Below, in pieces: positions 39,083 through 52,435 of a stretch of 64,000 nucleotides of DNA. The notes under the pieces were generated by a model. The model made no database searches. It worked only from the letters and a program-made list of their open reading frames with translations, and was not told the DNA's origin. A program made the translations under genes and the position numbers. Position 1 is the first letter of the stretch. Each line of letters opens with the position of its first letter. Source of the stretch: Dissulfurispira thermophila (GTDB lineage Bacteria; Nitrospirota; Thermodesulfovibrionia; Thermodesulfovibrionales; Dissulfurispiraceae); the NCBI RefSeq assembly GCF_014701235.1, contig NZ_AP022873.1:2306876-2370875 (forward strand). Direction: 5' to 3'.

Positions 39083-39943
39083 ATGGAACAGCTTTCTTTA
39101 AAACAGGATAAGTTTTTTGACATTCTAAGCACCATACTCTCCACCCTTGATATAGACGAGGTGCTCACAACTGTTGTCAAAGAGATAAAAACACTCCTTA
39201 GTGCTGACAGATGCACCCTTTTTCTTGTTGATAAAGACAATAATGAGCTTTACTCAAAGGTCCTTCAGGCAGACAATCTCGTAGAAATAAGGGTTCCAAT
39301 TACTCGCAGCAGCCTTGCGGGCTATACATCTATGACAGGGAATGTCCTGAATATAAAGGATGCCTATGATAACAAAGAGCTAAAATCTATAGACAGTGAA
39401 TTGTGTTTTGACAAGAGATGGGATGAAAAGAGCGGCTATAGAACAAAAAGTGTCCTTGCAATTCCTGTGAAGGCAAAAGGCGAGATTGTAGGAGTATTTC
39501 AGGCACTCAATAAACCTGATGGTTTTTCTGACATGGATATTCAAATAATGGAGCAACTCGCATTTCTCCTTGGTATTGCTGTTAATAATGCACTCTCATA
39601 TCAGATCATTGAAGAAGAGAAAAAGCTCAGGGAATATATTATTGATGATATAGAAGAAGGCATCTGCATTATTGATGCAAAAAAAAGGATTATATCTTCA
39701 GCAAACAGATTCCTGGAAGTAATGAGCGGCATGCGGTATTTAGTAGATAATATGATCGGGCATGATTTTTTTGAAATATTCCCCCAGCTTTCAGATACAC
39801 AGTTAGAAGAAAAAGTGAATGAGGCAATTAGAGACGGATTCAAAAAAATAGCACTGCTCGAAGTACTAGAGGTAAAAATCATTCCTTATCTGGATGAAAA
39901 AGCAAAGGTCAGGAAATTAATACTCATTTTTACGAGGGTATAG
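39083..39943 (+). CDS. GAF-PAS sensory protein
   Basis: 286 residues. A GAF domain covers about 10-170 (DRCTLFLVDKDNNELYSKV, KSVLAIPVKAKGEIVGVFQALNK). A short coiled coil and a PAS domain follow (about 188-285; IIDDIEEGICIIDAKKRIIS). No output domain is present, so it must act through a partner. Its TAG stop overlaps the GTG start of the PilB/GspE-type ATPase, which suggests it senses a ligand for pilus or secretion control (inference). No ribosome site precedes the ATG, consistent with a leaderless message. Confidence 0.85.
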   Translation: MEQLSLKQDKFFDILSTILSTLDIDEVLTTVVKEIKTLLSADRCTLFLVDKDNNELYSKVLQADNLVEIRVPITRSSLAGYTSMTGNVLNIKDAYDNKELKSIDSELCFDKRWDEKSGYRTKSVLAIPVKAKGEIVGVFQALNKPDGFSDMDIQIMEQLAFLLGIAVNNALSYQIIEEEKKLREYIIDDIEEGICIIDAKKRIISSANRFLEVMSGMRYLVDNMIGHDFFEIFPQLSDTQLEEKVNEAIRDGFKKIALLEVLEVKIIPYLDEKAKVRKLILIFTRV

Positions 39944-41676
39944 TGGCATTTAAAAGACCGACAGGGAAAAGTTTTGAAGAACTGCTCATAGAAAAGGGCA
40001 TCCTGACAAAAGAGAAACTACAGGAACTCCTTACAAAAGTAACAAAAGAAAAAAAGAGCCTTGAACAGCTTTTGTTGGAGTCAGGATTTTCTGAAGAAAA
40101 GATAGCTGCTGTAAAGGCAGAATATCTTGGATATGAATTCATTGACCTTTCATCCTATCCACAGCCGCCTGCTGATTTATTAAAACACATAAAGCCTGCA
40201 TATGCAAAAAACTACAAGGTAATTCCTATAAGATATGAAGATGATGTCCTAACTGTTGCAATGGCTGAGCCAAGAGATTTCATGGCGCTTGAGGAGGTTA
40301 TTCGCCTTTATAAAGATGCAAAGTTCAGGATAAAGGACTCCAGAGTCATTATGACCACAACAAAACAACTCTTTTCTGCCATAGAAAAATTTTATGCCTT
40401 ACCAAAAGAAGAAATAGGGATGGGGAACATATTGTCCCAACTTGCAGAGACTTATAAGCCTGAAATAGAAGTAGCAGAGGTTGCAAGGGAAGATGCCACA
40501 GAAAACAGCGCACCAATTGTAATGCTTGCAAATAAGATAATTGAAGAGGCATTTCAGAAAAGGACAAGCGATATACACCTTGAACCCGCGATAGACCACC
40601 TGCGTGTCAGGTACCGCATAGATGGGGAGCTAACAGAGGTGATGCGTGTGCCAAGATATGCGCAAGATGCACTTATTACAAGATTTAAGATAATGTCTGA
40701 CATGAGGATAGATGAAAGGCGCCAGCCACAGGATGGAAGAATAGACTTTACCAAGTATAATCCAGCAGTTGAGATAGACCTCCGTGTCTCTACTGTTCCA
40801 ACACCTCATGGAGAAGACATAGTAATGAGGATACTCGATAAAAAGAGTTCTATCCTTTCTCTGGATATGCTCGGATTCAATGAACACAACATGAAATTGT
40901 ATAAAGATGCAATAGCCTCTCCATACGGCATTATCCTCCATGTAGGACCCACGGGGAGCGGAAAAACAACAGCGCTTTATGCTGCACTGAAGTCTATGGA
41001 CACGCCTGATGTAAAGATAGTCACTGCTGAAGACCCTGTTGAATATACACTTGGGGGGCAGATTATACAGAGCAATATAAACCCTGCAGCAGGTTATACA
41101 TTTGCAAAGGCAATAAGGGCATTTATGAGGCATGACCCTGACATTATCTTGATAGGAGAAATCAGAGACCTTGAAACAGCAAAGACCGCTGTAGAGGCAT
41201 CATTGACAGGGCATCTTGTTTTTTCCACCCTTCACACAAATGATGCTGTAGGCACTGTCACAAGACTTACAGAGATGGGCATAGAATCATATCTCGTTGC
41301 TGACTCCCTGCTTTTGGTCTGTGCACAGAGGCTTATGAGAAGGATATGCAAGAAGTGCAAGGAATCTTATATTGCAACAGACGAAGAAGAGGAGATCACA
41401 AAAGGAGACATCAAAGCCGGGACAACACTTTACAAAGGAAAAGGCTGTGATGCATGTGAAGGCACAGGATACAAGGGACGCACGGGTGTTTATGAAATAC
41501 TATCTATGAACAGAAAACTCCGAAGCCTTTTGATAAAAGGTGCATCAACAGAGGAATTAAGAAAGGCAGCCATCGAAACAGGTATGAGGACACTCAGACA
41601 AGATGCAATAGAAAAGGCCCTGACAGGTGTCAGCACTGTAGAAGAGGTTGTATCAACTACACTGGCAGAAGCATAA
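39943..41676 (+). CDS. Type IV pilus/type II secretion assembly ATPase (PilB/GspE family)
   Basis: 577 residues with a GTG start. An N-terminal MshEN-type domain is at about 1-150 (FEELLIEKGILTKEKLQELL). The ATPase core has Walker A VGPTGSGKTTALYA, Asp box SDIHLEPA, and Walker B-like HDPDIILIGEIRDLETA. The zinc tetracysteine CKKC...CDACEGTGYKGRTGVYE is present. The MshEN domain of such ATPases can bind c-di-GMP. The other pilus or secretion genes are not nearby, so PilB and GspE cannot be separated. Confidence 0.92.
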   Translation: MAFKRPTGKSFEELLIEKGILTKEKLQELLTKVTKEKKSLEQLLLESGFSEEKIAAVKAEYLGYEFIDLSSYPQPPADLLKHIKPAYAKNYKVIPIRYEDDVLTVAMAEPRDFMALEEVIRLYKDAKFRIKDSRVIMTTTKQLFSAIEKFYALPKEEIGMGNILSQLAETYKPEIEVAEVAREDATENSAPIVMLANKIIEEAFQKRTSDIHLEPAIDHLRVRYRIDGELTEVMRVPRYAQDALITRFKIMSDMRIDERRQPQDGRIDFTKYNPAVEIDLRVSTVPTPHGEDIVMRILDKKSSILSLDMLGFNEHNMKLYKDAIASPYGIILHVGPTGSGKTTALYAALKSMDTPDVKIVTAEDPVEYTLGGQIIQSNINPAAGYTFAKAIRAFMRHDPDIILIGEIRDLETAKTAVEASLTGHLVFSTLHTNDAVGTVTRLTEMGIESYLVADSLLLVCAQRLMRRICKKCKESYIATDEEEEITKGDIKAGTTLYKGKGCDACEGTGYKGRTGVYEILSMNRKLRSLLIKGASTEELRKAAIETGMRTLRQDAIEKALTGVSTVEEVVSTTLAEA

Positions 41677-41758
41677 AATAATTTATAACTGAAAATCGGT
41701 GAAGTGATAAAGAGGTTAGCCATTCGGATTAATTTAAGATTTAAAGTTCAGGCTTTGA

Positions 41759-41822
41759 AAATAAGAGATGCTTCACTTCGAGATTCTTCAGTAGCTTCGC
41801 TCCTTCAGAATGACAGATAGTG
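41759..41822. repeat. 64-nt dispersed repeat, copy 2
   Basis: One mismatch to 24031-24094 over 64 nt, same orientation. It contains CTTCGAGATTCTTCAGTAGC and CAGAATGACAGATAGTG. The near identity across 17.7 kb indicates recent copying. Confidence 0.88.
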
Positions 41823-41848
41823 AAGGGGTGAAGAGGTGAAGGGGATAA

Positions 41849-41968
41849 CGTCTTCGGTGATTCAAAGTTGAAGGTTTAAAGTTTAAGATTTGAGATTTAA
41901 AATTCAAGATTGGATTTTATCTTCAGCTATTTGAATTTTGAATTTTAAATCTTGAATCGCCGAAGACG
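41849..41968. repeat. 120-bp inverted-repeat element ending in CGCCGAAGACG
   Basis: Ends CGTCTTCGGTGATTCAA (41849-41865) and TTGAATCGCCGAAGACG (41952-41968) are inverted repeats with one mismatch in 17. The AT-rich interior (TTTAAGATTTGAGATTTAAA versus AATTTTGAATTTTAAATCTT) continues the pairing. It shares a 35-nt segment with 62422-62456. Single arms of this family occur at 34081, 34329 and 50860. Confidence 0.8.
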
Positions 41969-42013
41969 TAAGAGGGAATGCTCATTAACTCATATATCAT
42001 ATGAACTTTGAGT

Positions 42014-43966
42014 ATGAAAAACAAAACAGCTATTTTCATAGGATTATTCATTACAATTGTTTTTGCTGTATTAATGCTCCTCAAGCTATCCCCTCTTGAA
42101 ACACTCGAAGAAAAGCTCCTTGATTATAGATTTATTACCAGAGGAACCATCAGCCCTCCAGATAATATTGTTATTGCAGCAATTGATGAAAAAAGCATAG
42201 AAAAACTTGGTAGATGGCCATGGGATAGAGACAGGATTGCAATGCTTGTTGACAAACTAAATAATACAGGTGCTGGAATAATAGTCTTTGACATAATATA
42301 TAGCGAGAAAGAGAAAAATGACCTACTGCTTGGCAATGCTATTAACAACGCTGGAAATGTGCTCATGCCCATTGTCTTTGATTTTGAAAGAGACTCTTCA
42401 AAGCCAGAAAACGAGGTGCTTTTAAATTCAGCATTTGTGTCAATAGAAAATCCTGAGATGTTTAATAAATATAATCCAATCATGGCAAAAAGTGCTCTTA
42501 TGCCTGTAGATAATATCATAAAAAATGTGATGGGACTTGGACATATCAACATGTTTCCAGATAGTGACGGCACACTAAGATGGGAATCCCTGATAATTGG
42601 ATATAAAGGTTATCTATATCCATCTATTACGCTACAGGCTGCAGCCTTTTATTTAGGCATTCCTCATGAAAAGATTGTTGTAAAGGCAACAGAAGGCATA
42701 AGATTTGGCAAAAGATTTATTCCAACCGATAGATGGGGGCGGATGCTCATAAATTATTATGGCTCTAATCAAACATTCAAGCACATCTCTATTTCTGACA
42801 TCCTCGAAGACAAAATCAGTCAAGAAGAGATAAGCGGCAAAATAGTGCTTATTGGTGCAACTGCTGTTGGCATTTATGATTTAAGGGTCACACCATTTTC
42901 TCCTGCAATGCCCGGGATAGAAAAGCATGCAAGTGTCATAGCATCGATCCTTGAAAACAGATTTTTAAAGGCATCCTCAAAAACAATAAATCTGATTATT
43001 CTTTTTTTGTCAGGCAGCCTTTTTTCTATTCTCATTCCAAGATTCAAGGCAACGGGGGCATCTGTAGTCACAGGCATTACCATGATGCTCATACTTTTGT
43101 CAGGCTACTACCTTTTTGTTAAGAATGGTCTCTGGATAAACATTTCATATCCTTTAATCAATATACTCTTTACATTCATGGGTGTCACAGCATATAACTA
43201 TGCAGTAGAAGAAAAACATGCAAGGAAAATCAGGGCAATGTTTTCAAGCTATGTAACAGAAAAAGTTGTAAATGAATTGATAAAAAATCCGGACATGGCT
43301 AAACTTGGCGGTGAAAGAAGAGAGGTAACTGTTCTTTTTTCAGATGTCAGGGGGTTCACATCCCTTTCAGAAAAACACTCTCCAGAGGAAGTAGTTGCCA
43401 TACTAAATGAATACCTCGGGGAGATGACCGATATAATATTCAGGTGGGAAGGCACTCTCGATAAATTCATTGGTGATGCAATACTTGCATTCTGGGGGGC
43501 ACCAATGCCGCAGCCAAATCATGCAGAGCTTGCTGTCAAGTGTGCACTGAACATGATAAAAAGGCTTGAAGAACTCCAGCAAAAATGGAAGGCAGAAGGC
43601 AAGCCTGTTTTAGACTGTGGGATTGGCATAAACACAGGTGAGGTGCTTGTGGGAAATATCGGTGCAGAAGGCAAGAAAATGGACTATACTGTTATTGGAG
43701 ACCATGTGAATTTAGGCTCGAGGATCGAAGGTCTCACAAGAAAATATAATGTCCACATATTGATAACAGAATTTACACTCGAGAAAATAAAAGACCTTGT
43801 AGCAGAAGGGCGTCTTTACAGGGCAGCAATAGAAGGGCTTGAAAAGGTTGCAGTCAAAGGAAAGGAGAGACCTGTTGAGATTTATGAGATAAGATCACTC
43901 CAGCAGGGCGAGGAGTCAAAGATTACAGAATGCAGAGAAGAAGTTGTTGTCATGAAAGAGAAATAA
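42014..43966 (+). CDS. CHASE2-domain adenylate/guanylate cyclase
   Basis: About 650 residues from ATG 42014 (an in-frame TTG lies at 42008). There is one N-terminal membrane helix and an extracytoplasmic CHASE2 domain (about 30-320; VIAAIDEKSIEKLGRWPWDR, the typical CHASE2 start). Three membrane helices (about 325-400) are followed by a class III nucleotide cyclase domain (about 430-620) with VLFSDVRGFTSL, DKFIGDAILAFWG and NTGEVLVGNIG. It should make cAMP in response to an envelope signal. CHASE2 cyclases frequently sit beside FecR-domain proteins, and a giant one is encoded 0.9 kb away. It converges with the OmpH gene without a gap. Confidence 0.92.
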   Translation: MKNKTAIFIGLFITIVFAVLMLLKLSPLETLEEKLLDYRFITRGTISPPDNIVIAAIDEKSIEKLGRWPWDRDRIAMLVDKLNNTGAGIIVFDIIYSEKEKNDLLLGNAINNAGNVLMPIVFDFERDSSKPENEVLLNSAFVSIENPEMFNKYNPIMAKSALMPVDNIIKNVMGLGHINMFPDSDGTLRWESLIIGYKGYLYPSITLQAAAFYLGIPHEKIVVKATEGIRFGKRFIPTDRWGRMLINYYGSNQTFKHISISDILEDKISQEEISGKIVLIGATAVGIYDLRVTPFSPAMPGIEKHASVIASILENRFLKASSKTINLIILFLSGSLFSILIPRFKATGASVVTGITMMLILLSGYYLFVKNGLWINISYPLINILFTFMGVTAYNYAVEEKHARKIRAMFSSYVTEKVVNELIKNPDMAKLGGERREVTVLFSDVRGFTSLSEKHSPEEVVAILNEYLGEMTDIIFRWEGTLDKFIGDAILAFWGAPMPQPNHAELAVKCALNMIKRLEELQQKWKAEGKPVLDCGIGINTGEVLVGNIGAEGKKMDYTVIGDHVNLGSRIEGLTRKYNVHILITEFTLEKIKDLVAEGRLYRAAIEGLEKVAVKGKERPVEIYEIRSLQQGEESKITECREEVVVMKEK

Positions 43967-44485
43967 TCACTGCTTGTCATAGAGTTTCATTATTTTTTGT
44001 GTGATGTCAACACTGCCTTTTACATGCACGATGCCTGCTGCATTTTTCTCAAATATAATTGTGTAGCCATCTTTTTCTGCTATCGTCTTTATAATAGCCT
44101 GTATATCAGTGAAAGCCTTTTTTAAGAGTTCAGCATCTTTTTTGCGAAGCTCTATTTCAATGTCTTCATTAAGCCTTCTGAGTTCCTTTATCTCATTAGC
44201 AAGTCTTTCTTCTAAGTTCTTTCTTTCCTCAGGAGGAAGTGTCATGGATTCTTTTTTGAGCCTTTCTTCGACCTGTCGCACAGCTTGTTGTTTTTCAGAG
44301 AGGATCTTCTTTTTTGCATCTACCTCTTGAAGCATCTGTTTGCGATAGACATTTATTGTCTTTGAGTCCCTCATTATTTGCTGAATGTCAAAAACACCGA
44401 TTTTAAGATTTTCAGCAAATAGGTCAAATATAGTGAATAGCAATAAAAAACAAACAGCAGATAATACGAACAAAGACCTTCTCAT
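43967..44485 (-). CDS. OmpH/Skp-family periplasmic chaperone
   Basis: 172 residues. A signal peptide (about 1-25, ending LFAEN) is followed by KIGVFDIQQIMRDSKTINVY and a long coiled coil (about 45-130), then EKDGYTIIFEKNAAG, the conserved OmpH end. Skp keeps outer-membrane proteins soluble in the periplasm. Here it is downstream of a beta-barrel protein and a giant exported protein on the same strand, so it may serve them. It is not next to bamA or lpxD as in many genomes. Confidence 0.85.
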   Translation of the reverse strand: MRRSLFVLSAVCFLLLFTIFDLFAENLKIGVFDIQQIMRDSKTINVYRKQMLQEVDAKKKILSEKQQAVRQVEERLKKESMTLPPEERKNLEERLANEIKELRRLNEDIEIELRKKDAELLKKAFTDIQAIIKTIAEKDGYTIIFEKNAAGIVHVKGSVDITQKIMKLYDKQ

Positions 44486-44859
44486 TATTTTCTCCTTATT
44501 CTGTTTTCACCTACGAAGTTCTGCAAGCATGTACATAATCTGATCTAATCTCGTCTTTTATCTCTTTTGTCCTCTCATCAACCACATCATAAATCAACTC
44601 CAGAGTGACCTTTTTTACTAAATGCTTTATGCTTGACTGCATAACTGCCTCCACAATTTATTGTTAAGTGGGTTTCACGAAATTCGTAATCCTTACCCCT
44701 CACCCTATCCCTCTCCCCAACGGGGAGAGGGAATTTTTTAATTTTGTGAAACCCTATTATTGTTAACCCAAATTTAGCAATACCTTAGAGTCGAACTCTC
44801 CTGCTCTGCTTAAGGGCAACTTCAGTATCACCTTTTGCATTCATTGCCACATCACTACC
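44486..44859. other. Spacer with a broken small ORF and a repeat
   Basis: 374 bp between the giant FecR gene and the OmpH gene. At 44511-44643 (minus strand) two overlapping frames would join, by one base shift near 44580, into a peptide of about 43 residues beginning MQSSIKHLVKKVTLELIYDV; it looks like a decayed short gene. At 44671-44755 lies a hairpin-forming repeat. Confidence 0.55.
44671..44755. repeat. Inverted-repeat element with GGGTTTCACRAAATT ends, copy 1
   Basis: Left end GGGTTTCACGAAATT and right end (reverse-complemented) GGGTTTCACAAAATT match in 14 of 15 positions. The interior contains the perfect hairpin CCCTCTCCCC-AA-CGGGGAGAGGG. A related copy in opposite orientation occupies 62311-62630, where the interior is interrupted. 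It follows the giant FecR gene and could also act as its transcription terminator. Confidence 0.75.
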
Positions 44860-47800
44860 CTATCTTGCCGTTCCTGCTGCTGTGCCTGAGAAGGTGCTTG
44901 TGCCTGTATCATATGTTCCAGCACCTGCACCATTCACAGTCAAGCTATTATTTGGGGAACTGCCAAGATTTATTCCTGTGCCGTTTATTGTTGCCATCCA
45001 CTTGTTATTTGCCCATGCCTGTGGAGTAAAATCAACGCTCCCAGCAGAGCCGCCGCTTAAACTAACCGCTGTTCCGATGGTTGGGGCTGCACTATATGTC
45101 CCGCTTACACTTCCTGTTGCCCACATTGTTGCCTTCTCTCCACTCTGGTTAGCAAGGAAAATCACATCATTCATATTCACTGTTAGATTATTGCCGCTTC
45201 CGCTAAAATTAGCCCTTCCAACTTCTACAACAGGGATATTCAGGTTTTTCAATGCCTGCTGCGCAGCAGTCAGGTTTGTGCCTGTTTGATTACATGTGCC
45301 ATTAGGACATGCCATTGAAAGCAGTTTGTTTGTCTCAATCCACACGCCTGTTGATACTGCCTGCCATGTAGCACTAGTAGCATCAAATGTGCCTTTCAAC
45401 TCTCCAGCATAGATGCCTGTCTTTGGTGTGCCTGTGATATCAGCAAAATATCCCCTCTGTGTTGCAATGAGGTTCTGGTCAGCACTCGGTCCCCATTTTG
45501 TGCCCCATGTCTCGATATTGATAATAGCGTTTCCAGCCTGAACTGCTGAGGTTTGTGGCAAAAGCTCCAATGTCCAATAATTAGTTGTGTAAGCAATATC
45601 CCATGTCCCTGCTAAATACATCTGATAGATTCCCCAGTCCTGTCCTGTTATATTTGCATCCTTCCATTGAGTATTGCCTAATAATACGCTTGCACTGCCA
45701 TATAAATTAGAATAGGTTGCATCACTATAAAAATTTATGTTGCCATTAGGCGATATTGTCTCTCCTGTATCATGAATTGCGAGATAATTTCCTGCAAAAT
45801 TAGCTGGCACTATGTTTGTATCTGAGCCCATCTGTACTGTATAGCCATTGAGGTCTAATGACCAGTAACCCTCGCTGAGAAGGTCGATAGAGTAAACATA
45901 GTAATCGTGAGTGTCAGATTTTGCACCCCTTAGAATACCTATGTTTTTGTCAGGGTCAACATAAAGTGCATAAAATGCAGCGTCTATTCTGCCCATGCCT
46001 GTAGAGGTATCTATAGGTAATTGATACCCTCCTACCCAGCCATAGTATGAGCCTCCATCTGTTGTTGTCATGCCACCCTGGAGATAATTATATGGCTCTA
46101 TTGACCAATACCATACATGAGGATTATTCACACTATCAAGAGGGCTATGCACACCAATAAACTCAAATTCAAATGGATTTGATGCACTTACAGGCAGGTT
46201 CCAGATAGAGAAACTTGCCATTACTCCCCACAGAGTGCCTTCTGATGTCTTATATGTCCCATCCCATCCGGTAAGGTCAATTAAAATCTGACTCAAAGCA
46301 TTTGCAGGTTCTGCAAAGCCTACTGCTGTGCCTGAGAAGGTGCTTGTGCTCGTATCATATGTTCCAGCACTAACTCCAAAAAACCATCCCTGAAGGATAT
46401 TGCTATCAACTGTTCCACCTACAAACTCAATATCAGCAAGATAGTTATTTGATTCCCATCTCTTTATGCTGAAGCTACCAAATAGTGTGTCATTATTATT
46501 TCCGTCATTTCCGCCTTCCAGATATGCCTTTACAGAAGTGTTTATAGTGCCGCTATAGGCCCCTGCCACTTTATTTGCAATCCATATCTTTGGAAACTCA
46601 TTTGCATTGTATGCAAAAAATCTCACGGCATCGGTACTCTCTGGATTAGTCCCGTCTCCTACTTCTAAAGCAATATTATTTCCATTTACCCCTCCACCTC
46701 CAGAAAGTAGCAGTCTTGTGCCAACCTCAATAGAGGGAAATCCAAGACTGCTCAGTTTTTCTCTTCCTCCTCCTGTTGATGTATCATCTACCATCTGACG
46801 AAACACCCCTGTTTTTATCCATGCACCAGTAGTTGCTGCACCAAGAGCTTGTAAATCATCATTATATGCACCATAAGTATCTCCGTGAAGCACTGCTGTA
46901 AATGGACTACCACCCACTACGCCAAAATCCCATGTAGCCCATGCACCATTGCCTCTGCCTGTGAGCTTACCACCTGCCCATGTATCTCCCCTTGTTGCAT
47001 AGGTTATGATGTTTTGCAAATTATTACTACCATCCTTCCAGTATGCCCTCATGCCTAAAAGATAGTTTTTATTTGCAAGAGACGGAGTATATTTAGCCTT
47101 TGAAAGGAAATTAAATGTTCCCCAGTCAAGGATACCACTTTTTTCTTTTAATCCACTGATTTTCAAGTCCCAATCCACCCTGTTACTTGATCCATCCCAA
47201 CTTTCCTGGACATTTAATTTTGTTATCAAGTCATCTGTTGATTTTGCAAAACCTCCCCATGATTCATTATCAAAACCAGAACCAAAACCACTCCAGTAAA
47301 TATCCTGTCCATAAGAAATCTCATTATATATGTTGTCATAAATCGTAGTTCCTGCTAAATCATCTAAAGTCCAGTCAGATGTGCCAAGCCCAACCCTGTT
47401 TATTGTGCCTGATGCATCAAACATATAAATATCAGGATAGTTTGTTCCGCTGAATGAGCCTTTTAATATGCCTGCCCCGGCATCTTTGTCAATATATGCT
47501 GCATAGAGCAAGCCCTGTTTAGAACTATTTGCTATTGTGTCTATGCCAATCATATAACCATAGTATGTGCCATTGTCATATGCTGCCCTGCGATTATTAC
47601 CTGTAGCACTATAGTCTACTGGTTGTATTGGTGTGCTCCAAAAGAGATTGTAGTTTGAGCTTTCAATCTTACCTATCATTGTCAGGGGGATATTAGTGCC
47701 ACTGCCTGACCACAGGCTTGTTGTGTCTCCCATGTAAAAAAAGAGACTATAACTACTATATGGGGAAAAATCACTCCCTATATAATTACTTAAAATGCCT

Positions 47801-50800
47801 GAAGATCCGCCTCCAGACTCAGAATAATCAGTAACATATTTTAGCGGCTCTTCATTATATGTGCCAATGGTTGTGCCTGAATATGTGCTACTTTCAAATA
47901 TACCAAGGAAGTCTCCAGTAAATGAGCCTTTTGCTTGCCTTCCAATGTATGTGCCTGTCACCTGACCTGTAAAAGTGCCATTTGATGCATTCCAAGCAGA
48001 GCCTGACAAATTGCCGATCCAATAACTATCTACATCCCCATTGAGATCAGTTGTATATCCACCTGCTTTTGCTGTATAGTTTGATGTTGGTATAGAAGAG
48101 TATGTGCCAGTAAAATAATTGTAAAAAATACCCCATGGAAGCACATTGCCATTTGCATCTGCGTATATCTTAATATCATGCCCATATAAATCGCCTGCTT
48201 GAATATCTCCGGCGCTGAAATAGCCCATCCATCCTGTTGTATATTCATTTGCTCCATCAAATTTCAATGCACTCCCAGAGTATGCAAAAGTTGTATTAAC
48301 AATGTTGTCAGGTCCATATGTTGTGCTTCCTGTTTTTTGTTGTGATGAGAGTGTGCCGCTTAGTTCGTACATGTTTATGCCTTTATACACATTTCCACTT
48401 AGCAGACTTGATGTTATCATGCCTGTTGATCCATCATTTTTGATATATAGTCCAACTGCCTTTGCAAGCATTGAGCTATAGTCACTTCTACCCACTATGC
48501 CTGATGTAATTAGATAAAACGCCCCATCAGAAGTGTCTGCACTGCTCATTGTCCTGCCATAAAAGTCCATTGTGAATAATCCACTATTATCCTGATACGG
48601 ATAGGTATCGTCTAATTTCCCCATGCTCTTAAAAGATGGAGATGGTAAATACAAGCTATACATACCACCTGCAAGCCCACCGGTAATATTACTATTGATA
48701 GAAATACCATCATCATTATACAAATCAACAATTTCTCCGAATCCACCCTCCTTAAACTTTGCCATATAAAGCATTGGGGAGACATTCTTTGTGCCAGCTC
48801 CTGCCATGTAATAGTTGCCACCTGTCGGGCTACTACTATATATTCCTGTGTATGAAACAGATGTTGTCCCTATTAATCCAAGAGGCTTTCCATCAGGGTT
48901 GCCATCAAAATTTATATCAGCATTTTCTTTTAGTTCCATGTAATTTGCTATTTTACTCAGTGTGAATTTGCCTGATAAATTATCTGTAAAAGAACCATTT
49001 TCTACCTGATAAGACGAAAAACCTGCACTGGTATCAATAATAGCCTGGCCCATTGGTCCTGTTACACTCGTTATAGAATTGGCGTTTGAATAGCCTGAGC
49101 CTACTGCAACATCCTGCCAGAGACCAAGATATGAATTATTTGCAACTGATGGATTGAGATTCCACAATGTAGCGCTATGATTTGAAGAGCCAAATGATAT
49201 ATTTCCATTAGGCGTAAATATAGACCAACTGTCAGGAAATGTAAAATGATTTGACACTATATTTTCACTTATAGCTGAAGGCAGAGGGCTTAAATTTGTG
49301 CCTGTCAATGGTGCCTTTGACCATGAGCCACTGCCTGTGAGGGTATCGCCTGAAAGAGAACCAGAGAGATCAGCCCTTATAAAGCCAATAATATTATCCT
49401 CTATATAAAATCCTGCCAGATGCTCATATGCAAGATTCGCATATGTATCTGCCTGTGTAGTTGTGCCTGCAAAAATGCCATAAAATGCACCATTTTTATC
49501 TGTTGTGCCACTGAATTCTCCGCCCCATAGATTATAGCCACTTGGATTACTGTAACCTGTTAATGTAAAACCGCCAGTCCCAGAAGCTCCATTATATGGG
49601 AAAGAGCCACTCAATGTAGCAGCGCTGTAAGAGCCTGTAACCTTTGCAGGGTTATTGTCAAAAAAATACCTTAACATAGAACCAGTAAAATTAGTTGTAG
49701 TAGTTGTTGTAGTTGTTATAGTTGTTATCTCTGTTATAGGTGGCGGTGGCGGTGGTGGAGGCACATATGTGGTAGTGGTGATGTCGGTAGTAGTTGATGG
49801 TGGAGGAGGGGCAAATGGGTCCATTGTTGGCGGTGGCGGTGCAGCAACAGTTGTTGTTGCATCAGTTGTGGTGGTGGTAGTTGTTGTAGTAGTGCCAGTA
49901 GCTGTATCAGTGGTTGGAGTTGCTGTTATAGCGGTTGTTGATTCTTGCTGTGCTGTAGTAGGTGCAGCCTCCTGAGTCGTTGACTCTGCCTGTGCTGTAG
50001 TAGGTGCAGCCTCCTGAGTCGTTGACTCTGCCTGTGCTGTAGTAGGTGCAGCCTCTTGAGTTGTTGACTCTGCCTGTGCTGTAGTAGGTGCAGCCTCCTG
50101 AGTTGCAGGCTTGCTTTCTTCTGCCTTTGCAGTTTTTGGTGTGTCTTCTTTTTTGTCTTCTGTCCTGTCCTTTGGTTTTTCAGCAATAGTTATATCTTTT
50201 TCGTGTTTTTGTTTTTCTTCTTCTGTCGCTGGCTTTGGTGGTGCTGGGGGTCTGTTTTCTGCTACTGTTGTCATATGTCCTGCTGCTACAACTACCTTTT
50301 GTTCAGGAAATTTTGGGTTATATGTCTCAACCCTGCCTTCTTTTACTAAGACCCCTGTAACTCCTCTTTCATGAAATGTAAAATACTCTGTGCCTCTTAC
50401 TCCAGCAACTGCTACAGGGGTGCGGATTTCAAATTTATTTGCTGTTGGAGACTCAGCAATGCGCTGGGTTACCCTCTTGTCAACCTTTGCCTCTACTTTA
50501 CCCCTCGGCATATCCATTACAGCCTTGCTCTGTCCATCAAGAGAATATTCTGTAATGTCTATTCTACTCCTCTGTGCTATTTTCAGGACATTTCCATCAT
50601 TAAAAACAACCTCTGCCTTTGAGTTGCTTTTTGTCCTTATAATGTCCTTTACATTGATTACATCACCAACCTTAGCTGCTATTGCCGGGAGTTTGCCGTC
50701 TCTCAATATCTCTACCTGTCCTTCCATGCGAGTAATCTTGCCTATTGACGCCTCTGCATTAACAGCAAAAAGAGAGATATAAAAGGCAAAGAGCATAGAG

Positions 50801-50892
50801 CAGAAGGCATAAAAACAGAGGCTTTGAGCCTTAAGCCTTGAACTTTGAACTCTAAACTTTGAATCGCCGAAGGCGTGCGATACCTGACCCAT
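44860..50892 (-). CDS. Giant FecR-domain repetitive envelope protein
   Basis: 2,010 residues from ATG 50892, chosen because TTAGGAGGTATATT precedes it; the frame is open further upstream inside the neighbouring gene. It has a signal segment (about 28-45, LFAFYISLFAVNAEA) and a FecR domain (about 50-200, IGKITRMEGQVEILRDGK, GVRGTEYF). A linker (210-400) has four 14-residue repeats (QEAAPTTAQAESTT), polythreonine and polyproline. About 1,600 residues of Gly/Ser/Thr/aromatic beta-rich sequence follow. These contain at least four modules with A-x-Y-I-D...G-I-L-x-G-S-x-S-G and repeated GTYDTSTSTFSGTA blocks. No autotransporter barrel or LPXTG is seen. Probably secreted or surface attached; function unknown. 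It lies 10 bp after the TPR-barrel gene. Confidence 0.8.
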   Translation of the reverse strand: MGQVSHAFGDSKFRVQSSRLKAQSLCFYAFCSMLFAFYISLFAVNAEASIGKITRMEGQVEILRDGKLPAIAAKVGDVINVKDIIRTKSNSKAEVVFNDGNVLKIAQRSRIDITEYSLDGQSKAVMDMPRGKVEAKVDKRVTQRIAESPTANKFEIRTPVAVAGVRGTEYFTFHERGVTGVLVKEGRVETYNPKFPEQKVVVAAGHMTTVAENRPPAPPKPATEEEKQKHEKDITIAEKPKDRTEDKKEDTPKTAKAEESKPATQEAAPTTAQAESTTQEAAPTTAQAESTTQEAAPTTAQAESTTQEAAPTTAQQESTTAITATPTTDTATGTTTTTTTTTTDATTTVAAPPPPTMDPFAPPPPSTTTDITTTTYVPPPPPPPPITEITTITTTTTTTTNFTGSMLRYFFDNNPAKVTGSYSAATLSGSFPYNGASGTGGFTLTGYSNPSGYNLWGGEFSGTTDKNGAFYGIFAGTTTQADTYANLAYEHLAGFYIEDNIIGFIRADLSGSLSGDTLTGSGSWSKAPLTGTNLSPLPSAISENIVSNHFTFPDSWSIFTPNGNISFGSSNHSATLWNLNPSVANNSYLGLWQDVAVGSGYSNANSITSVTGPMGQAIIDTSAGFSSYQVENGSFTDNLSGKFTLSKIANYMELKENADINFDGNPDGKPLGLIGTTSVSYTGIYSSSPTGGNYYMAGAGTKNVSPMLYMAKFKEGGFGEIVDLYNDDGISINSNITGGLAGGMYSLYLPSPSFKSMGKLDDTYPYQDNSGLFTMDFYGRTMSSADTSDGAFYLITSGIVGRSDYSSMLAKAVGLYIKNDGSTGMITSSLLSGNVYKGINMYELSGTLSSQQKTGSTTYGPDNIVNTTFAYSGSALKFDGANEYTTGWMGYFSAGDIQAGDLYGHDIKIYADANGNVLPWGIFYNYFTGTYSSIPTSNYTAKAGGYTTDLNGDVDSYWIGNLSGSAWNASNGTFTGQVTGTYIGRQAKGSFTGDFLGIFESSTYSGTTIGTYNEEPLKYVTDYSESGGGSSGILSNYIGSDFSPYSSYSLFFYMGDTTSLWSGSGTNIPLTMIGKIESSNYNLFWSTPIQPVDYSATGNNRRAAYDNGTYYGYMIGIDTIANSSKQGLLYAAYIDKDAGAGILKGSFSGTNYPDIYMFDASGTINRVGLGTSDWTLDDLAGTTIYDNIYNEISYGQDIYWSGFGSGFDNESWGGFAKSTDDLITKLNVQESWDGSSNRVDWDLKISGLKEKSGILDWGTFNFLSKAKYTPSLANKNYLLGMRAYWKDGSNNLQNIITYATRGDTWAGGKLTGRGNGAWATWDFGVVGGSPFTAVLHGDTYGAYNDDLQALGAATTGAWIKTGVFRQMVDDTSTGGGREKLSSLGFPSIEVGTRLLLSGGGGVNGNNIALEVGDGTNPESTDAVRFFAYNANEFPKIWIANKVAGAYSGTINTSVKAYLEGGNDGNNNDTLFGSFSIKRWESNNYLADIEFVGGTVDSNILQGWFFGVSAGTYDTSTSTFSGTAVGFAEPANALSQILIDLTGWDGTYKTSEGTLWGVMASFSIWNLPVSASNPFEFEFIGVHSPLDSVNNPHVWYWSIEPYNYLQGGMTTTDGGSYYGWVGGYQLPIDTSTGMGRIDAAFYALYVDPDKNIGILRGAKSDTHDYYVYSIDLLSEGYWSLDLNGYTVQMGSDTNIVPANFAGNYLAIHDTGETISPNGNINFYSDATYSNLYGSASVLLGNTQWKDANITGQDWGIYQMYLAGTWDIAYTTNYWTLELLPQTSAVQAGNAIINIETWGTKWGPSADQNLIATQRGYFADITGTPKTGIYAGELKGTFDATSATWQAVSTGVWIETNKLLSMACPNGTCNQTGTNLTAAQQALKNLNIPVVEVGRANFSGSGNNLTVNMNDVIFLANQSGEKATMWATGSVSGTYSAAPTIGTAVSLSGGSAGSVDFTPQAWANNKWMATINGTGINLGSSPNNSLTVNGAGAGTYDTGTSTFSGTAAGTAR
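49933..50100 (-). repeat. Four tandem 42-bp repeats in the FecR protein linker
   Basis: Each unit encodes QEAAPTTAQ(A/Q)ESTT. The middle units differ by only one to three bases, so the array is young and likely to vary in copy number between strains. A copy-number change keeps the frame. Confidence 0.92.
50803..50878. repeat. CGCCGAAGGCG-family repeat arm inside the FecR gene start
   Basis: TTTGAATCGCCGAAGGCG (50858-50875) and the adjoining TTAAGCCTTGAACTTTGAAC text are of the spacer repeat family seen at 34081, 34329 and 41849-41968. Here it is translated (minus strand) as about residues 6-28 of the giant protein (HAFGDSKFRVQSSRLKAQ). Confidence 0.75.
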
Positions 50893-50902
50893 AATATACC
50901 TC

Positions 50903-52435
50903 CTAAAACTCATAGTTAATACCAAAGCCATATATGTTTTTCCTGTAGTCATATATGGCAAAATTAGAATCAGCCCGAGTGTATGAGTAGTTAAGATTTA
51001 GATTCAGACCCTCCAAGATCTCATAAACAATGCTTGCATTTGCATTATAGAGCTTATCCCTCCTTTTTGTTGGGATAGATGGATAGCCATTTGTGCCTGT
51101 CCCTGAGATTGTGTGGATATTTTTAAACTGCTGCACTGTCATATCGCCTGATATAGAGAGATTTAACTTATTCATCACAGGATAAAGAATGGTTGCGCTG
51201 ACCTTATCACTTTTACTGTCCCAGTTTTTTCCCTGTGTATCATCCTTTGTATATTCATATCTCATATTGAAAAATCCCTTTCCTTCTTTGAATGGATAGA
51301 TAATGCCAATGAGTGTGGTGTATAAGTTACCGTCTCTGTCTTCATCAGGATCAGCTCCTTGTGTATATTTTAGCATTTCTCTTTTGCCATACCCAACAGA
51401 AAACTGTCCAATAAGGCTGTTGAACAACTGGATATTCAATGTTGGCTTCAAAGATGTTATGGTCATATATTCCTGCTCATTAAGCCACACATGCGAATAA
51501 CTCAAAGGTAGGCTTATTGCACTATTCTGGAAATTATAGCCAGGAATAATGGCTATTGAATGAGCCATAGTATCATAGGCATATGAGTGAAAATAGTTTG
51601 TTGCAAAGATGCTGTATTGTGCTGCAAAAGAGTACTGCCCGCTCATCATCGGGGAATAAGTTACTGCAAATGTATTTGTTATAGCACTGTCTCTTTTGCC
51701 TGATATGTTATCAACTGCTGCTATGCCTATAGTGCCAGTAGGTTTTGAAACAACATTATCGTCAAACTGATATGAAGCACCAATATTAAATCTCCAAGCC
51801 TTGTAAGCCTCTATTACGCGTGCTATAGATGCCTCATATTCCTTTGCAAAAGATGCTAATTCAGAAGATGGGTCAATGCTTATCAATGCCTTTAATGCAT
51901 CCTTTGCCTGTTTTAGTTTTCGCTCTTTTGCATAAATCATTGCTATCTGAAAGTCAACTGCTTGTGTCAAATCCTTATTCAAGGTCTTTGCCTTTGTAAA
52001 TGCGTGGATTGCCTCATCATTTTTGCCTTCCTTTGCAAGCACAAGTCCCTTGAGAAAGGCTATATTTGCTAAAAATACACCTGCCTTTTCTGCCTCTGCA
52101 ATCCATTCCTTTGCCTCCTTAAGCTCATTGAGGTTGTAAAGCATTTCTATTATCTCTGGATATGCCTCATTTACGCGGGGTGTAAGGGTGAGGGCATCCC
52201 TGTAATTGCTTAGTGCTTCTCTGTATTTGCCAACCTGTTTGTATGTGAGACCAAGATAAAATGCCGCTATAGAGGATGATGGATACTGCTGCCTTACTTT
52301 CTTGAATGTCTCGAGGGCCTCTTCATAACTTTCTGCCCTGTATTCTATAATGCCCCTTTGCAAAAGATCCTGTGCAAAGGCGGGTTGTGAAAAGATAAAA
52401 AGAAATACCAATAGAATAAATATCCTTTTCTTCAT
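50903..52435 (-). CDS. TPR-domain outer-membrane beta-barrel protein
   Basis: 510 residues from ATG 52435 (MKKRIFILLVFLFIFSQPAFAQ, a clean signal peptide); the upstream in-frame codons are not needed. The N-terminal half (about 25-215) is TPR repeats (RAESYEEALETFKKV, GKYREALSNYRDAL, KNDEAIHAFTKAK). The C-terminal half alternates aromatic beta strands and ends YGFGINYEF, with the terminal phenylalanine expected of a BAM substrate. This arrangement resembles Slam- and PgaA/BcsC-like exporters. It precedes the giant FecR gene by 10 bp, so it is a candidate outer-membrane partner or exporter for it (inference). Confidence 0.8.
   Translation of the reverse strand: MKKRIFILLVFLFIFSQPAFAQDLLQRGIIEYRAESYEEALETFKKVRQQYPSSSIAAFYLGLTYKQVGKYREALSNYRDALTLTPRVNEAYPEIIEMLYNLNELKEAKEWIAEAEKAGVFLANIAFLKGLVLAKEGKNDEAIHAFTKAKTLNKDLTQAVDFQIAMIYAKERKLKQAKDALKALISIDPSSELASFAKEYEASIARVIEAYKAWRFNIGASYQFDDNVVSKPTGTIGIAAVDNISGKRDSAITNTFAVTYSPMMSGQYSFAAQYSIFATNYFHSYAYDTMAHSIAIIPGYNFQNSAISLPLSYSHVWLNEQEYMTITSLKPTLNIQLFNSLIGQFSVGYGKREMLKYTQGADPDEDRDGNLYTTLIGIIYPFKEGKGFFNMRYEYTKDDTQGKNWDSKSDKVSATILYPVMNKLNLSISGDMTVQQFKNIHTISGTGTNGYPSIPTKRRDKLYNANASIVYEILEGLNLNLNYSYTRADSNFAIYDYRKNIYGFGINYEF

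Follow-up and report, generated by a model that had tools for sequence, protein, structure and literature searches.

A Slam-family pore gene paired with a giant modular FecR-domain gene in Dissulfurispira thermophila: a probable type 11 secretion system serving a new cargo class

The window analyzed here is a 64,000-nt stretch of Dissulfurispira thermophila DNA (contig NZ_AP022873.1, positions 2,306,876 to 2,370,875), the terminal part of a 2.37-Mb single-contig genome, and it carries a gene for an outer-membrane protein with tetratricopeptide repeats (TPRs) followed by a gene for a giant FecR-domain protein. On the minus strand, the pore gene (50903-52435), the giant gene (44860-50892) and an OmpH/Skp gene (43967-44485) are arranged in this order from 5' to 3'; the giant open reading frame (ORF) begins 10 bp past the stop of the pore gene, and the OmpH gene lies 374 bp beyond the end of the giant gene. 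A CHASE2-cyclase gene on the plus strand (42008-43966) is convergent with the OmpH gene, with a gap of zero. These coordinates bear out an earlier note on this DNA, which had placed OmpH downstream on the same strand with a CHASE2-cyclase gene converging on it. Judging from the sequence and from structural models, the locus is probably a Slam-like (type 11) secretion system with a new cargo class, whose giant protein would be displayed on the cell surface.

The pore protein (510 aa) matches PF04575 (SlipAM, DUF560) with an E-value of 1.1e-15, at 58 bits against a cut-off of 22 and over 278 of 288 positions. Its N-terminus reads MKKRIFILLVFLFIFSQPAFA, where a signal peptide was judged by eye, and its last residue is F. 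The AlphaFold2 (AF2) model, built from a 69-sequence alignment (predicted local distance difference test score, pLDDT, 93.6), contains helices up to residue 210 and then 14 strands (214-509) without a plug. The periplasmic TPR domain (residues 19-210, helical in the model; 51806-52381, minus strand; TPR_2, E 5e-18) is structurally matched by MamA/PilF (Z 19-20), and the TPR_Slam score of the pore, 31.7 bits, is slightly below the cut-off of 35.2. The barrel (residues 214-510; 50906-51796, minus strand) is matched by CymA (Z 21.5) and OmpG (Z 20.0). Fourteen strands are expected for the pores of the type 11 secretion system (T11SS), and 16 for PgaA (PMC8406197). By its PF04575 match and its 14-strand/TPR model, the pore is a member of the named Slam/DUF560 family, so this half of the locus already has a name. 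The earlier note had described a signal-peptide TPR protein with a barrel-like C-terminus ending in Phe, and the model confirms it, the predicted C-terminal fold being a barrel; its view of the exporter as an undescribed kind does not hold, since the pore belongs to type 11 secretion.

The TPR-plus-barrel build, the Foldseek top match (BcsC) and weak profile matches to EpsL and BBP2_2 would also suit a polysaccharide exporter of the PgaA/BcsC/EpsL type, with the giant protein as an accessory factor. We regard this as very improbable, since the barrel has 14 strands and not 16, the BBP2_2 match (E 8e-4) is far weaker than that of PF04575, the conserved partner of the pore is a protein-coding gene (see below), and no glycosyltransferase or synthase gene was found among the window neighbors scanned, which are housekeeping or unrelated genes (UvrC, a PBP1A-type protein, ParA/ParB, a GAF protein and a PilB/GspE-type ATPase with an MshEN domain). 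An identity with PgaA or BcsC was rejected on the strand number and on the lack of a synthase among these neighbors.

At the N-terminus of the giant protein (2,010 aa), which we propose as the cargo, lies a signal peptide whose end is of the AEA type (judged by eye); a lipobox is absent. A FecR domain (residues 84-189; 50326-50643, minus strand; PF04773, E 4.9e-14) is followed by a Thr/Pro/Ala-rich linker, defined by composition (residues 216-401; 49690-50247, minus strand), within which lies a 42-bp tandem repeat of 4.1 copies (49934-50105, minus strand; Tandem Repeats Finder score 302, 94% matches). Many contigs of metagenome-assembled genomes (MAGs) stop inside such Pro/Thr linkers, and the linker length may therefore vary between strains. 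The roughly 1,600 residues after the linker are a Gly/Ser/Thr/Asn/Tyr-rich beta sequence, in which profiles resolved four A-modules (~270 aa) alternating with B-domains (~190 aa; two clear, one weak and partial). The minus-strand order is A-module 1 (residues 384-638; 48979-49743; E 2e-5), A-module 2 (705-972; 47977-48780; E 4e-16), A-module 3 (1007-1312; 46957-47874; E 2e-20), an inner B-domain (1315-1527; 46312-46950; E 2e-46), A-module 4 (1528-1807; 45472-46311; E 1e-59, this copy being included in the profile's own alignment) and the C-terminal B-domain (1813-2009; 44866-45456), which was found by profiles, is all-beta in the AF2 model and is proposed as the export signal. A BLAST self-comparison of the giant protein detected zero repeats because they are too diverged. 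Residues 1310-2010 (701 residues) were modeled as nearly all antiparallel beta, with a pLDDT of 87.9 and a predicted template modeling score of 0.89. The 2,010-residue FecR protein located by the earlier note 10 bp downstream of the pore gene is thus present as an ORF with a PF04773 domain, and the ~1,600 residues of repetitive beta sequence that it had noticed are real, as diverged A/B repeats and, over the last 701 residues, as a confidently predicted all-beta fold. In homologues the number of A-modules ranges from one to about six, and the longest protein has 2,909 aa.

The named FecR domain, together with the contact of the E. coli FecR domain with an outer-membrane protein (PMC5498481), could suggest a regulator of the FecIRA kind, in which FecR and the barrel form a pair for TonB-type cell-surface signaling. 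This is extremely improbable, given that the giant protein begins with a signal peptide and shows no obvious cytoplasmic portion, that no sigma factor gene occurs among the scanned neighbors, and that the barrel has 14 strands and no plug. The identity as a FecIRA anti-sigma factor was rejected on the N-terminal signal peptide and on the scanned neighbors being without a sigma factor gene.

The pairing of pore and FecR genes is conserved far beyond the window. Among 80 loci taken from named genomes, the pore gene was usable in 72. On its strand and no more than 3 kb downstream of it, a FecR gene occurs in 59 of the 64 loci with a flank of at least 1 kb and in 43 of the 44 with at least 6 kb; the gap is below 50 bp in 37 of 62. 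The hosts belong to four phyla, comprising Nitrospirota, Desulfobacterota (Geobacter/Geomonas and others), Omnitrophota and Nitrospinota, and most of the named records are Nitrospirota MAGs. This adjacency is more than chance because it is conserved across phyla, and the homologues do not usually occur apart, an outcome that the earlier note had held would speak against its proposal. The PF04575 model alone matches 23 of 100 relatives, while a profile built from the loci's own sequences finds strong pore matches in 32 genomes plus a group of weaker barrels, so that the Pfam count understates the family. When the window's genome and these relatives (101 genomes) were scored for a B-domain and for a strong homologue of the pore, 23 had both, nine the pore only, one the B-domain only and 68 neither (Fisher p 2e-14, uncorrected for kinship); in the lone genome with the B-domain only, the contigs break at the locus. 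Furthermore, another locus encodes a FecR-less B-domain protein 20 bp after a pore gene (L177:10558-11946), which argues that the B-domain itself, and not only FecR, tracks the pore. The B-domain is a conserved neighbor of Slam-type pores in uncultured and sediment bacteria from several phyla. Separately, large secreted-looking proteins of 1,441-1,480 aa without a B-domain are encoded directly behind the FecR cargo in two loci (L063:11801-16243, L065:12419-16744) and are possibly a second cargo.

The position of the B-domain is strict: in all 32 complete FecR ORFs that carry one, no more than 15 residues separate the end of one copy from the C-terminus. Searches of Pfam and of PDB sequences with the B-domain gave no convincing relative and no Pfam family. 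The structural comparison of the 701-residue model ranked TbpB, the classical Slam cargo, first; the C-lobe entries (3ve1, 5kkx, 9clt, 4o3z, 9cmg, 9dc4 and 3pqu; Z 2.9-4.0) fall on model residues 544-701, reaching the C-terminus. We take this resemblance as a hint at the expected position, not as proof. T11SS cargo is recognized via a C-terminal barrel and may carry repeated handle-barrel pairs and Pro/Thr repeats (PMC12282271), and the B-domain is a candidate T11SS targeting domain with a strictly C-terminal placement.

The OmpH/Skp gene of the locus (PF03938, E 4e-22), proposed to encode a dedicated cargo chaperone, is the second in the genome, the other copy being at G000:C1:70205. In most relatives only one OmpH scores above the cut-off, and at least two are present in 20 of the 101 genomes; these are 12 of the 24 genomes with a B-domain and eight of the 77 others (Fisher p 9e-5, uncorrected for kinship). 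The extra OmpH lies 84-459 bp from the B-domain or pore in 11 of the 24 B-domain genomes, including that of the window. A strong terminator-like stem (44708-44732, no strand assigned; 11 pairs, 8 G-C; a consensus match only) separates the giant gene from the OmpH gene, so a single transcript of the two is not certain. In Neisseria, Skp binds Slam cargo, boosts its translocation into proteoliposomes and acts as a holdase, and N. meningitidis requires Skp for functional surface TbpB (PMC9090332). Since Neisseria Skp binds Slam cargo and is needed for surface TbpB, the Skp gene fits what a Slam-type system might carry; by this analogy it is circumstantial evidence for Skp-dependent export. The earlier note had Skp helping the barrel, whereas Skp more likely keeps the cargo unfolded (PMC9090332). 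The presence of a second Skp gene in the locus would also back, from independent genomic data, the model of Skp and Slam built in Neisseria.

Taken together, the conserved adjacency and the predicted barrel support, at the level of prediction, the earlier note's proposal that the giant protein is exported or displayed by the barrel. The giant protein would leave the cytoplasm by Sec, Skp would hold its beta-domains unfolded, and the pore would recognize the C-terminal B-domain and pass the chain outward. Once outside, the beta-modules would fold into a stalk resembling an adhesin or a sensor, carried on the long Thr/Pro linker. The FecR domain, which replaces the lipid anchor of the classical Slam cargo, may remain in the periplasm as a tether, although full release seems about equally probable. 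The CHASE2 cyclase may in turn read the FecR domain, which is less certain than the tethering.

Several observations weigh against this secretion model. FecR is not known as a part of T11SS cargo, and no match to the TbpB_B_D / lipoprotein C sequence domain was obtained among 51 B-domains; a PF01298 (TbpB_B_D) search of the 100 relatives also returned zero matches, in a run without a responding positive control, so that absence is not shown. T11SS cluster 3 loci are likewise mostly without a TbpB_B_D domain (PMC12282271). The structural resemblance to TbpB is weak, as its best Z of 4.0 lies in a range rated unsafe by the tool's calibration, and Foldseek with the 701-residue cargo model gave no matches at E <= 0.001. 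A detectable B-domain is absent from 15 of the 47 complete pore-adjacent FecR ORFs, although it sits in the next ORF in at least three of those 15 (L116, L098 and L146). Finally, no cargo adjoins the short FecR (247-274 aa) in three others of the 15, from loci consisting of pore, FecR and CHASE2 cyclase (L092:11485-12228, L095:11500-12324, L099:11446-12261), where FecR terminates shortly past the linker motif PPITE; this form could be either a natural loss of cargo or a pure signaling form.

A split variant of the locus is found with a second, weaker group of TPR-barrel proteins (~380-550 aa). In each of the six loci examined (L170-L175), a 256-319-aa FecR protein follows without a gap; in four of the six, the next gene is lipoprotein-like, with FN3, Big_5, CARDB or DUF3108-like domains. 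These lipoproteins have an N-terminal domain in common and differ from one another at the C-terminus, in contrast to T11SS cargo. Pfam called no SlipAM in the two split-variant barrels scanned, only TPRs and a near-threshold BBP2_2, and the kinship of this group therefore rests on the own-sequence profile. Several small FecR proteins have strand-like tails, e.g. TPVNINITFP or TDVTINVKF (L172:6972-7745, L173:4123-4893, L174:4659-5465, L175:5632-6408, L141:4084-5400, L143:13059-14423, L147:11370-12407 and L149:5281-6279); most precede a lipoprotein gene, and the tail is absent in L170 and L171, both without a lipoprotein gene. Such a tail might act as the strand on which the lipoprotein or the pore docks.

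The adenylate/guanylate cyclase of the window (CHASE2, E 1e-63; Guanylate_cyc, E 3e-25) raises the alternative that the locus serves trans-envelope signaling first and export second, with the pore, FecR and the CHASE2 cyclase forming a sensor and the giant part being a periplasmic or surface ligand-binding extension. The cargo-less loci would suit such a sensor, as would the split loci, four of six of which have a CHASE2 cyclase 43-48% identical to that of the window; a CHASE2 gene is also found within 6 kb of 11 of the 24 barrels of the weaker group. Outside these loci, FecR-CHASE2 pairing is known in Burkholderia (PMC5192318), and in Sinorhizobium meliloti CHASE2 cyclases receive input from NsrA, an outer-membrane barrel (PMC13001267). 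However, a CHASE2 cyclase is no more than eight genes away from the pore in only 14 of 44 loci, compared with FecR near 43 of 44, and the second Skp and the C-terminal B-domain are better suited to export; we consider this alternative unlikely. A CHASE2 cyclase is within 12 kb of the pore or B-domain in nine relatives, and the cyclase is less clearly tied to the pore than FecR is, because PilB/GspE ATPase and GAF genes also keep synteny with it in several loci. The order GAF - PilB/GspE ATPase (MshEN) - CHASE2 cyclase is kept in the window (39083-43966) and in L073, L074, L084 and L085, and loci of the Geobacter type are ordered PilB - CHASE2 - pore - FecR, possibly a tie to type IV pili. A second FecR gene of the window's genome (371 aa) lies ~4 kb from its other CHASE2 gene (G000:C1:942532-948205), near which no Slam-type pore was found; such pairs recur in relatives.

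That the cyclase reads envelope state, as the earlier note proposed, is plausible from these gene neighborhoods, and the FecR and CHASE2 parts suggest that surface display may be linked to cyclic-nucleotide signaling. On the model of Slam-like secretion, a further and rather doubtful extension would be a surface protein that signals inward, with the cargo threaded through or docked on the pore, FecR in the periplasm and the cyclase reading export or ligand state. Export, tethering and second-messenger signaling would then be one machine, existing in fused (FecR-giant) and split (FecR plus surface lipoprotein) forms and targeted by a previously unknown C-terminal domain.

Among known systems, two-partner secretion (TpsB/TpsA) likewise combines one dedicated outer-membrane pore with one very large partner gene, but TpsB has POTRA domains and 16 strands, while the pore described here has TPRs and 14 strands and the proposed signal is C-terminal instead of N-terminal. 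The Burkholderia BiofilmReg operon shares a periplasmic FecR gene beside a CHASE2 signaling (kinase) gene, but there the parts are a LysM-FecR protein and a histidine kinase, and pore and giant cargo are absent (PMC5192318). The Sinorhizobium NsrA system shares an outer-membrane barrel upstream of CHASE2 cyclases, with FecR in the regulon (PMC13001267, PMC5498481); a Slam-type pore or cargo is not described there, and the likeness is drawn at the level of description. With Slam/T11SS (PMC8406197, PMC12282271, PMC9090332) the locus shares the PF04575 14-strand barrel, the N-terminal TPRs, an adjoining cargo gene with a conserved C-terminal beta-domain, duplicated modules, Pro/Thr linkers and the link to Skp. 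It differs in occurring in phyla beyond the surveys of Proteobacteria, in FecR replacing the lipid anchor, in cargo of up to about 2,900 aa, in a C-terminal domain without a TbpB_B_D match, and in the Skp and often CHASE2-cyclase genes of the locus. The T11SS papers cover Proteobacteria and cargo with TbpB-type barrels, and one of them allows that unknown domains may target cargo to environmental pore clusters (PMC12282271); FecR, Nitrospirota and Geobacter are unmentioned in the main text of the two main T11SS bioinformatic papers. None of the open papers searched describes a Slam pore combined with FecR, a modular giant protein, a second Skp and a CHASE2 cyclase. The earlier note's statement that it knew of no named system with this combination stands for the combination and falls for the exporter, which belongs to the T11SS pore family. 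The pore family was known before; the novelty lies in the modular FecR cargo and its distinct C-terminal domain, in the second Skp and in the frequent cyclase. A secretion system described in Proteobacteria is thereby probably extended to further phyla and to a different type of cargo.

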